Origin: Plesiomonas shigelloides
Lineage (GTDB): Bacteria; Pseudomonadota; Gammaproteobacteria; Enterobacterales; CAMTGL01
NCBI RefSeq assembly: GCF_900087055.1
Contig: NZ_LT575468.1
Coordinates: 1,240,001-1,304,000, forward strand
DNA: 64,000 nucleotides
Reading direction: 5' to 3'
Positions 43,647 through 56,580 of this stretch are shown one piece after another. Within the stretch, counting starts at the first letter, position 1. The number at the start of each line of letters is the position of its first letter. The notes below the pieces were generated by a model. That model had not been told where the DNA came from. It did no database searches and saw nothing but the letters and a program-made list of their open reading frames with translations. The translations under genes and the position numbers were made by a program.

Positions 43647-44144
43647 ATGCAACTGAACAAAGTACTGAAGGGACTGATGTTAGCTCTGCCAGTAATGGCT
43701 GTAGCAGCTTGTAGCTCTAACAAGAGCAACGACAACGCAGATCAGATGATCAACTCTGGCGACAGCAATGGCAGCATGTCCGCTGAAGAGCAAGCTCGTA
43801 TGATGATGCAAGAGCTGCAAAAGAATAACATCGTTTACTTCGGCTTTGACAAATACGACATCCAACCAGAGTTCGCTCAGATGCTGGATGCTCACGCTGC
43901 GTTCCTGCGTGACAACCCATCTTACAAAGTTGTTGTAGAAGGTCACGCGGATGAGCGTGGTACTCCAGAATACAACATCGCTCTGGGTGAGCGTCGTGCC
44001 AATGCAGTTAAAATGTACCTGCAAGGTCGTGGTGTAAATGCTGACCAAATCTCTATCGTTTCTTACGGTAAAGAGAAGCCAGCAGTTCTGGGCCATACTG
44101 AAGACGCGTACGCTAAAAACCGTCGCGCAGTACTGGTTTACTAA
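43647..44144 (+). CDS. pal: Peptidoglycan-associated lipoprotein Pal
   Basis: Pal is an outer-membrane lipoprotein that binds peptidoglycan and TolB. The 165-residue product has lipobox VAAC (Cys22), a flexible linker and an OmpA-like domain at about 55-165 with [20 protein letters not shown] and [25 protein letters not shown] precedes the ATG. Codon use is strongly optimised, as expected of an abundant protein. Confidence 0.97.
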
Positions 44145-44156
44145 TAAGGATATCGC

Positions 44157-44957
44157 ATGAACCGTAACTACAGACCGATTATCAGTCTGTCGTTACTGGT
44201 ACTCGCAGCCGTGTCTGGCACGGCTGCGGCGCAAGCTCCTGTATACGAGGCGGGCTCCGGATCTCTTGAAGATCGGGTGACTCGCCTCGAACGTATGATG
44301 GAAGCGCGTAACCAGTTACTGACAGAAACCCAGCAGCAGTTAATGTCTCTGCAAGGCGAGATGGATCAGTTACGTGGTTCGCTTGAGCGCAGTGAATATC
44401 AGCTAAATCAGGCGGTTGAACGCCAGCGTCAGCTCTATCAAGAGCTCGATAATGTCTCTGCTCAAAACAAGCAAGCGGCTGATACCGCAACCACTGATGC
44501 GACAGCGCCAGCCGCAGCAACCGCACCAGCTGCAAAAGCCGCCGCGCCTGCTAAAGATGTTGTGGTCAGTGATAATGCGGTAGAAAACCAAGCCTATGAT
44601 GCAGCAGTTCAGCTGGTATTGCGTGATAAGCAATACGATAAAGCGATTACTGCGTTTCAGGACTTTATCGCGAAGTATCCAAAATCGGTTTACCGGCCGA
44701 ATGCGCATTACTGGTTAGGGCAGTTACTGTTCAGTCAGAAGCGCACCGATGAGGCAGCGGCGCAATTTGCCGCGGTGGTAAAAGATTTTCCAAAGTCACC
44801 CAAGCGGGCCGATGCCATGCTTAAACTGGGTGTGATTGCTCAGGAGAAAGGTGATGTGGCGGGAGCCAAAACGGTGTTCCAGCAGATTATCTCTGCTTAT
44901 CCAACATCGTCATCAGCCAAAATGGCCAAATCCCGTCTGGCAGCATTGGGTGGTTAA
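44157..44957 (+). CDS. cpoB: Cell division coordinator CpoB (YbgF)
   Basis: CpoB couples outer-membrane constriction by Tol-Pal with PBP1B activity at the septum. The 266-residue product has a signal peptide (cleavage near TAAA-QAP), a trimerising coiled coil at about 35-100 (RVTRLERMMEARNQLLTE), an Ala/Pro/Lys linker and three TPR-type repeats (AITAFQDFIAKYPKS, AAAQFAAVVKDFPKS, KTVFQQIISAYPTS). It is 12 bases after pal and ends the operon before a strong terminator. Confidence 0.95.
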   Translation: MNRNYRPIISLSLLVLAAVSGTAAAQAPVYEAGSGSLEDRVTRLERMMEARNQLLTETQQQLMSLQGEMDQLRGSLERSEYQLNQAVERQRQLYQELDNVSAQNKQAADTATTDATAPAAATAPAAKAAAPAKDVVVSDNAVENQAYDAAVQLVLRDKQYDKAITAFQDFIAKYPKSVYRPNAHYWLGQLLFSQKRTDEAAAQFAAVVKDFPKSPKRADAMLKLGVIAQEKGDVAGAKTVFQQIISAYPTSSSAKMAKSRLAALGG

Positions 44958-53607: not shown

Positions 53608-53979
53608 TTTCGTACCTCGTGTACGCAGTGGACTTAATAAGAATGGATGACTTTATCTCATGTCATCTGACTGCTCTAACAGTAATCCCTAAGGAAGTAT
53701 AGCCGCAACGCTGTAAACGCTAACAAACTGTATTCTTTGTGTATAAAAATGTCAGAGTGTGAGGGATTGGCGTTGGTGGCAATACTTATCGATTTGGACG
53801 GCTATGACGCGAGGTTTAGTTATAAGAATGATATGCAAAAAATGTCGTAAAATTAATGAGCTATAAAACTGAGCGCGTGAAACCGTTAACCGACTCCCGA
53901 GTCGTAAACGGTTTCACAAGCACTGATTATGATTGCCAATTTCTGGAGCGACTTTGCGTCTTTATTACGCGACCACGAA
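53608..53979. other. Gene-free stretch with a long perfect inverted repeat
   Basis: These 372 bases are the upstream region of the HdeB-like gene. The main feature is GTGAAACCGTT/AACGGTTTCAC (53877-53917), whose interior holds a second stem CGACT/AGTCG. No T run follows on either strand. Confidence 0.5.
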
Positions 53980-54138
53980 TTACTTTGATTTCTCGTCAGT
54001 TGATTGAGGTGCGGTAGTTGCGGCGTTTTCCGTACCTGACTGACGATTTTTATCGGAATGCTGTGGCGGACGAACAAAACCATGACGTACGCGGGAAGAG
54101 CTAGGACGGCTTCGGTGGCAGGCAGGAAGTGGACTCAT
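53980..54138 (-). CDS. Candidate 52-residue hypothetical protein
   Basis: A short frame with GAGG 5 bases before the ATG encodes a hydrophilic, probably disordered peptide. It starts MSPLPACHRSRPSSSR and ends TAPQSTDEKSK. Possible promoter elements TTAACT and GATAAA (17-base spacer) lie just upstream on the minus strand. The composition (basic N-terminus, Thr/Ser/Gln-rich C-terminus) looks more protein-like than the longer overlapping frame at 53886-54083. No family is recognised. Confidence 0.4.
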   Translation of the reverse strand: MSPLPACHRSRPSSSRVRHGFVRPPQHSDKNRQSGTENAATTAPQSTDEKSK

Positions 54139-54530
54139 AAATGCCTCGGCTTATAGTCTGATTTATCAGTAAAATGAGGTTGTCAGTTAACCCAGTATTA
54201 ACATGAGAGCAGTGTACTCCGGTGGCACAATCTTTTGAATGGGGTAGAGCACAAATTCACGGTAAAAAAGCGTGCTTTTTCGCTGTATCCGAGATGAATG
54301 GCAGACTGAATATGCTGCTTTTTATAGTGCAACTGGTAGAACGAGAAAGTTAAGGAATAAGACCGCGTTGGTGAGTGGTCGATCCTATACTGCCGATGAT
54401 ATTAAAAGAAGAAATTGTTATGAAACCTGCGGGGCACTTGCGGTAGAAAAAGAGGTGTAATGAAGGCGATCTTAATAAGAAAAAATCAATAAGAAAAGCG
54501 CAATAAGTGAAGAACAATAAAAAACACAGA
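54139..54530. other. A/T-rich stretch without a supported gene
   Basis: About 390 bases. A 62-codon plus-strand frame at 54272-54460 starts with GTG, lacks a ribosome site and uses many rare AGA codons, so it is not called. Nothing else stands out. Confidence 0.4.
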
Positions 54531-54531
54531 T

Positions 54532-54632
54532 AAAAGAAAAGGGGGGATGACTCCCCCTGAATATCATTTGCAATGACACGCGAATATCATAAAACGATGC
54601 AGACGGGCTGCATCAAGCGGTGACCCAACACA
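54532..54632 (-). ncRNA. Candidate small regulatory RNA of about 100 nucleotides
   Basis: Minus-strand promoter hexamers TTGACT and TAGTTT are spaced exactly 17 bases (54639-54667). About 75 bases after the predicted start comes an intrinsic terminator GGGGG-AGTCAT-CCCCC followed by CTTTTCTTTT (54531-54558). Between them is a perfect hairpin GATGCAG/CTGCATC (54596-54614) and a TCATT/AATGA stem; ATGATATTC occurs twice. The 5' end, TGTGTGTTGGGTCACCGC, is unpaired and could be a seed. No open frame of note lies inside. It does not match an sRNA I recognise. Confidence 0.55.
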
Positions 54633-54638
54633 CATATA

Positions 54639-54701
54639 AAACTAGTTGAGCATGACGTGGCAGTCAACGGAAATTTACATTCCGTTAACGTAAGCGTTAA
54701 C
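54639..54701 (-). promoter_or_regulatory. Promoter and dyad operators of the candidate sRNA
   Basis: -35 TTGACT is at 54662-54667 and -10 TAGTTT at 54639-54644. Abutting the -35 are two overlapping perfect dyads: AACGGAA-N7-TTCCGTT (54666-54686) and GTTAACG-TAAG-CGTTAAC (54684-54701). They look like binding sites for a dimeric regulator. Confidence 0.5.
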
Positions 54702-54853: not shown

Positions 54854-54884
54854 AAAAAAACGCCCACGAGATTCCGTGAGCGTG
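54854..54884 (-). terminator. Terminator of the yej operon
   Basis: On the minus strand ACGCTCACG pairs with CGTGGGCGT (one T-G pair) over loop GAATCT, followed by TTTTTTT, about 60 bases after the yejF stop. Confidence 0.88.
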
Positions 54885-54942: not shown

Positions 54943-56580
54943 TTAATAACGTGCCGCATTGAGCAGCATTTGGGTATACGGATGCTGAGGTTGGCGGAAC
55001 AGTGATTCAGTTGGCCCGGCTTCTACAATCTTGCCATCTTTCAACACCATCACTTGGTGGCACAGTGCACGTACGACATGCAGATCGTGACTGATAAAGA
55101 GATAAGCCAAGCCGTGACGAGCTTGCAACTGCTTGAGTAGCGACAAGATTTGCGCTTGTACCGTACGATCCAGTGATGAAGTGGGTTCATCCAAGATCAG
55201 CAGCTCAGGGCGCAGGATCAAGGCACGGGCAATGGCAATCCGTTGGCGCTGGCCACCGGAGAACTCAAAAGCGTAGCGGTGGCGGCTTTCTGGGTCTAAC
55301 CCAACCTCTTGCATGATGCTGATCACCTGTTGCTCGCTTTCTTGCGCCGATAAACGCGCGTGCAAACGCAACCCTTCCGCAATGATGTCACCGACAGGCA
55401 TGCGTGGGCTGAGTGATGAGAACGGATCTTGGAAAATTACCTGAATGCGTGAGCGATAGGGCAGCATTTGCTTGCGGTTTAGGCGATTGAGATCAGCCTC
55501 ATCAAAACGGATTTCCCCTTGTGATGGTAACAGGCGTAGCAATGCCAATCCGCAGGTACTTTTGCCCGAGCCACTTTCGCCGACCAAGCCAAGGCTTTCG
55601 CCCCGATTGACGCTGAAACTGACATCATCCACCGCTTTAACATGGTCAACCGTGCGTTTGAGTAACCCGCGCTTAATCGGGAACCAAACCCGTAAGGCTT
55701 CCACGTTGAGTAACGTTTGCGCCGGCGTTGGTGCTGGCACCGGCTCGCCTTTAGGCTCGCTGTCGAGCAATTTTTGAGTGTAAGGATGCTGCGGCTGGCT
55801 GAATAACTGTTGGGTGGGCGCGGTCTCCACCAGCTCACCTTGGCGCATCACGGCTACGCGATCCGCTAGACGGCGCACAATGCCTAAATCATGCGTGATG
55901 AACAGCATGGCCATGTTCATTTCGCGTTGCAACTGCTGTAGCAAAGTGAGGATCTGGGCTTGTACCGAGACATCCAATGCCGTGGTCGGCTCGTCGGCAA
56001 TCAAAAGGTCGGGAGCATTTAGCAGAGCCATGGCGATCATCACCCGCTGGCGTTCGCCACCAGACAGCTGGTGGGGGAATACATCAAGCTTGGTGTGTGG
56101 ATTACGCAGACCCACTCTCTCTAGCCATTCCAATACCCGCTGCCGTGCAGCGGCGCTGCTCAGCGCCTGATGGATAATCAACGACTCACTTAACTGACGG
56201 ACGACCGTGTGTAGCGGGTTAAGCGATACCATTGGTTCTTGGAAGATCATGCTAATCCGGTTGCCGCGTAGCCCTCGGAGGTGATTGGCGGACGCGGTTA
56301 GCAGGTTTTCGCCGCGATACACGATCTCGCCGTGTGGGTAGCGGATGGTGTCAGGGTGTAAGCCCAAAATCGACAAGGCAGATACCGATTTACCTGAGCC
56401 ACTTTCACCAACCAGTGCCAGCGTTTCACCGGGCATGATTTGCAGCGAGAGGTCTTTGACCAGCGTGGTAGCGCGTTCACCTTGATGAACCGCTACGCTG
56501 AGGTGGCGAATATCAATCAACGGCGCGTTATCGCTCATGTGTGAAGACTCATTCGGATGGTTTGCGGTTTGCTGCGCCAT
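54943..56580 (-). CDS. yejF: Peptide ABC transporter ATPase YejF
   Basis: YejF energises the YejABE oligopeptide importer, which in E. coli also takes up microcin C. The 545-residue product is a double ATPase: Walker [10 protein letters not shown] at about 58 and GESGSGKST at about 335, signatures SGGERQR and SGGQRQR, Walker B LLIADEPT and LLILDEPT. The start at 56580 lies 3 bases after yejE; an ATG 14 codons in (MSDNAPLIDI, 56538) better matches E. coli YejF length and may be the real start. It is the last gene of the operon. Confidence 0.93.
   Translation of the reverse strand: MAQQTANHPNESSHMSDNAPLIDIRHLSVAVHQGERATTLVKDLSLQIMPGETLALVGESGSGKSVSALSILGLHPDTIRYPHGEIVYRGENLLTASANHLRGLRGNRISMIFQEPMVSLNPLHTVVRQLSESLIIHQALSSAAARQRVLEWLERVGLRNPHTKLDVFPHQLSGGERQRVMIAMALLNAPDLLIADEPTTALDVSVQAQILTLLQQLQREMNMAMLFITHDLGIVRRLADRVAVMRQGELVETAPTQQLFSQPQHPYTQKLLDSEPKGEPVPAPTPAQTLLNVEALRVWFPIKRGLLKRTVDHVKAVDDVSFSVNRGESLGLVGESGSGKSTCGLALLRLLPSQGEIRFDEADLNRLNRKQMLPYRSRIQVIFQDPFSSLSPRMPVGDIIAEGLRLHARLSAQESEQQVISIMQEVGLDPESRHRYAFEFSGGQRQRIAIARALILRPELLILDEPTSSLDRTVQAQILSLLKQLQARHGLAYLFISHDLHVVRALCHQVMVLKDGKIVEAGPTESLFRQPQHPYTQMLLNAARY

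Follow-up and report, generated by a model that had tools for sequence, protein, structure and literature searches.

On the minus strand of Plesiomonas shigelloides, downstream of yejF, lies a short cassette consisting of a promoter, hairpins, and a terminator. In our judgment there is roughly an even chance that it is a short independent unit giving a non-coding RNA of ~100 nt, most likely a lineage-specific, trans-acting sRNA that depends on Hfq. As sequence, the sRNA-like unit is real and reasonably well formed, but as a small RNA specific to the species it is an unproven candidate of an ordinary kind. The elements of the cassette and its surroundings within the window (the whole 64-kb stretch of DNA analyzed) are as follows.

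54883-54860, minus strand: terminator of yejF itself, a 10-bp stem followed by six T, upstream of the candidate unit
54701-54684, minus strand: dyad 1, GTTAACG-N4-CGTTAAC (GTTAACGcttaCGTTAAC), a perfect 7-bp dyad 5' of the -35 element; putative operator
54686-54666, minus strand: dyad 2, AACGGAA-N7-TTCCGTT (AACGGAAtgtaaatTTCCGTT), a perfect 7-bp dyad reaching the first bases of the -35 element; putative operator
54667-54662, minus strand: -35 element TTGACT, from sequence and weighted score
54644-54639, minus strand: -10 element TAGTTT, matching the consensus at 3 of 6 positions, from sequence and weighted score
54532-54632, minus strand: candidate small RNA of ~100 nt, the transcript predicted from the promoter and terminator unit and the three hairpins
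54614-54596, minus strand: hairpin 1, GATGCAG/CTGCATC, from sequence and folding
54590-54582 and 54567-54559, minus strand: the doubled sequence ATGATATTC
54579-54561, minus strand: hairpin 2, GTGTCATT/AATGATAT, from sequence and folding
54557-54532, minus strand: predicted intrinsic terminator, stem GGGGGA-GTCA-TCCCCC (54557-54542), then CTTTTCTTTT

The -35 and -10 elements are separated by a 17-bp spacer, the three hairpins fall within about 105 bases 3' of the -10 element, and dyads 1 and 2 overlap by 3 bp. The terminator of the candidate is strong, with a hairpin of -11.2 kcal/mol. The neighboring ABC transporter genes of the peptide-transporter operon yejABEF were confirmed by Pfam; yejF ends at 54943, and its terminator lies ~300 nt upstream of the candidate unit. 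Thus, the promoter, the three stem-loops, the doubled sequence, the dyads abutting the -35 element, and the separate terminator of the yej operon are all present where the earlier note had placed them.

The promoter by itself is not convincing evidence. It matches the consensus at 8 of 12 positions, sites that good occur at ~2.5 per kb per strand, and a standard promoter consensus scan does not list it. By a weighted sigma-70 score (rough, built on base frequencies from general knowledge, and used for ranking only), only one site on the same strand of the 1.24-kb intergenic region ranks higher; across the window, sites scoring at least as well occur at 0.14 per kb. We defined a unit as a promoter at a threshold of 9.0 bits followed by a terminator 50 to 220 nt downstream. 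Across all 64 kb of the window, the scan found only two such units, the candidate and one at 4.4 kb that belongs to a tRNA gene and served as an unplanned positive control. Shuffled intergenic sequence yielded a unit in 0.7% of trials, a figure that is somewhat flattering because the threshold was set post hoc, just under the candidate's own score of 9.06. These figures make it plausible that the candidate is a short transcription unit of its own, and to this extent the earlier note's claim of an independent unit stands, as a prediction with a moderate promoter that does better than chance. Three perfect dyads of at least 7 bp within 125 bp were found in 0.05% of intergenic dinucleotide shuffles, and two perfect dyads within 25 bp in 1%, both tests having been chosen after the pattern was seen. 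The predicted fold of the 100-nt RNA stands out only modestly against shuffled sequence (z = -1.94); 8 of the 200 shuffles equaled or exceeded it in stability. On balance, we counted the rarity of the paired promoter and terminator, the clustering of hairpins and dyads, the strong terminator, the separate yejF terminator, the presence of hfq in the genome, and the negative results for Pfam domains and ribosome-binding sites (below) in favor of an independent sRNA; we counted against it the 8/12 promoter, the post hoc threshold, the fold z score, the failure of every search to find a homologue, a paralogue, or an Rfam match, and the fact that the literature searched held no expression data.

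The sRNA reading has two main rivals: that the cassette is the structured 3' part of yejF, or that it arose by chance. The cassette might be part of the yejABEF transcript, with hairpins, including the two dyads as RNA, that protect it or back up the termination of yejF read-through; there would then be no independent promoter, or the RNA would be a fragment derived from the 3' UTR. The candidate does lie on the strand of yejF and downstream of it, both dyads are able to form RNA hairpins, the terminators at 54860 and 54542 stand in tandem, and the -10 element is weak. However, the first of those terminators is strong, with its 10-bp stem and six T, and the gap beyond it contains the second-best promoter score of the strand, and we regard this explanation as possible if doubtful. 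It is unlikely that the cassette came together by chance and has no function, 1.2 kb of non-coding DNA happening to hold a sequence that resembles a weak promoter, dyads of random origin, and a hairpin similar to a terminator. The searches showed no conservation, 8/12 promoters are common, and the folding z score is just -1.94, all of which would fit such an assembly, but the joint occurrence of promoter and terminator in so few shuffles argues against it, as does the rate of terminator-like hairpins at the scan threshold, 0.1 per shuffle.

A further alternative is that the region is translated, as a leader peptide or attenuator or as a small membrane protein. Inside and beyond the candidate, at 54613-54472 on the minus strand, MQPVCIVL, MIFACHCK, and a hydrophobic peptide of 31 amino acids (54567 to 54472) are encoded by three short frames, each joined to the next through an ATGA overlap. 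Their abutting arrangement is what speaks for a tiny coding gene; on the other side, no Shine-Dalgarno sequence precedes any of the frames, and the 31-amino-acid frame extends through the terminator. We found no ribosome-binding sites ahead of these mini-ORFs and rejected the small-ORF reading for that lack. A leader role is also countered by the HdeA-family gene that comes next on this strand, since it starts ~930 bases further on and has a promoter-like site of its own. Altogether, translation of these frames seems hardly probable. The neighboring gene itself (53607-53272, minus strand) encodes an acid-stress chaperone of the HdeA/HdeB family (Pfam PF06411, E = 2e-20), and its promoter-like site is CTGACA-17-TACAGT at 53755-53727. 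Between it and the candidate there is about 0.85 kb of non-coding DNA (53640-54500). A pseudogene reading of this intergenic DNA was dismissed, as three of its longer open frames, compared with Pfam, had no match.

If the candidate is an sRNA, a sigma-70-type promoter would start transcription near 54632, and transcription would end near 54535-54532 at the intrinsic terminator. The resulting RNA would comprise two hairpins and the terminator hairpin with its U-rich tail. The tail is of a kind that Hfq binds, and Hfq, which is encoded in the P. shigelloides genome, could bind it here; pairing with target mRNAs might involve UGUGUGUUGGGUCACCGCUU, the 5' segment left unpaired, or GUUUUAUGAUAUUCGC, which links hairpins 1 and 2. 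For the 5' arm of hairpin 2, the upstream copy of ATGATAT (54590-54584) is an alternative partner, predicted at ~6% compared with ~90% for the downstream copy. Because the predicted ensemble favors the downstream copy to this extent (about 0.9 versus 0.06), a switch is not indicated. A more elaborate version, in which a Plesiomonas-specific sRNA is under a dedicated dimeric regulator at the two overlapping dyads and contains an inner bistable hairpin whose GUGUCAU pairs with either ATGATAT copy and so exposes or hides the pairing segment, is one that we hold to be quite improbable.

The suggestion in the earlier note that a dimeric repressor or activator controls the promoter was not supported. 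Each dyad is unique as a perfect copy in a genome-wide search, from which no clear regulon emerged, and the candidate has no regulator gene beside it. Near-matches to dyad 1 in the genome were fewer than for its control (26 versus 42); those to dyad 2 were slightly more numerous (12 versus 7), several of them being copies of one dispersed repeat. The 21-mer AACGGATGGGCTTTTTGCGTT occurs at G000:C1 538754, 662058, 3084277, and 3302826, with a one-base variant at 3101780, and its scattered copies suggest a dispersed repeat in the P. shigelloides genome. Known types of site were also considered. Direct repeats of the ArcA/PhoP type have an expected spacing of 11 bp, and this reading of dyad 1 was rejected since its GTTAA repeats lie 12 bp apart. 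Hairpin 1, read as a DNA dyad (GATGCA-N7-TGCATC), was rejected as an NsrR site, its center being GCCCGTC and not T/A-rich. Among genome matches to the hairpin 1 dyad with at most one mismatch, there were no sites of the TTT-N-AAA type.

Relatives of the candidate were sought by several routes. No Rfam 15 covariance model matched at E ≤ 1 over 2.2 kb around it, and a scan of the whole window at the gathering score gave no match there either, with E values up to 10 returning noise only. These results bear out the earlier note's statement that the unit could not be matched to a known enterobacterial sRNA, as no family scored above the gathering cut-off. Elsewhere in the window, the Rfam model of the CpoB/ybgF intercistronic RNA thermometer (RF02782) matched strongly, with 103.5 bits, at 44045-44186 on the plus strand. 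We found no second copy or paralogue in the P. shigelloides genome. DNA searches of 40 and then about 395 genomes of the order returned no homologue, the matches being short scraps, mostly of 16 to 40 bases, the best of which had an E value of 4e-4 per genome, or ~0.16 over all genomes. A single-sequence covariance model run over 198 genomes gave six weak matches and no homologue. The four top-scoring of these were aligned, and the contexts of five (L039, L040, and L042-L044) were examined. L040 and L042 are terminators directly after unrelated reading frames, and L039 lies at a contig end and overlaps a long reading frame; given these contexts, we judged the weak matches to be due to chance. 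The core pattern of the candidate was absent from the viral contigs and GTDB genomes searched, and blastn against plasmids, phages, and E. coli found no homologue.

Among 80 yejF orthologues in Enterobacterales and Vibrio, none was followed by anything similar, a reversed control giving comparable noise, and an unfiltered search of 13 further yejF loci found nothing resembling the candidate. In the sole congeneric genome compared, which is 75% complete, no orthologue of yejF was detected, the best match having 49% identity. A conserved enterobacterial sRNA would be expected to have a homologue in related genera or 3' of yejF elsewhere; neither was found in these sequences, and by this measure the candidate is not one. 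The literature searched contained no sRNA survey for this lineage and no expression data or transcript for the candidate.

In its layout, the candidate resembles the enterobacterial Hfq-dependent trans-acting sRNAs: it is intergenic, ~100 nt long as predicted, and has a candidate sigma-70-like promoter of its own and a predicted intrinsic terminator with a U-rich tail. The predicted promoter, moderate in strength, and the predicted terminator lie within the ~50 to 200 nt of each other that mark this class in intergenic regions. The candidate differs in that neither its sequence nor covariance models linked it to an Rfam family. It is also like the 3' UTR-derived sRNAs, as it follows a gene of its own strand and would end at an intrinsic terminator, but it differs from them in having a strong terminator between it and yejF and a candidate promoter of its own. 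Bacterial genomes commonly contain lineage-specific sRNA candidates of this type, and this one by itself leaves the general picture unchanged. Should it prove to be transcribed, a lineage with no sRNA survey in the literature searched would have an sRNA, one whose lack of relatives would illustrate, on a small scale, how such RNAs arise anew in intergenic DNA.
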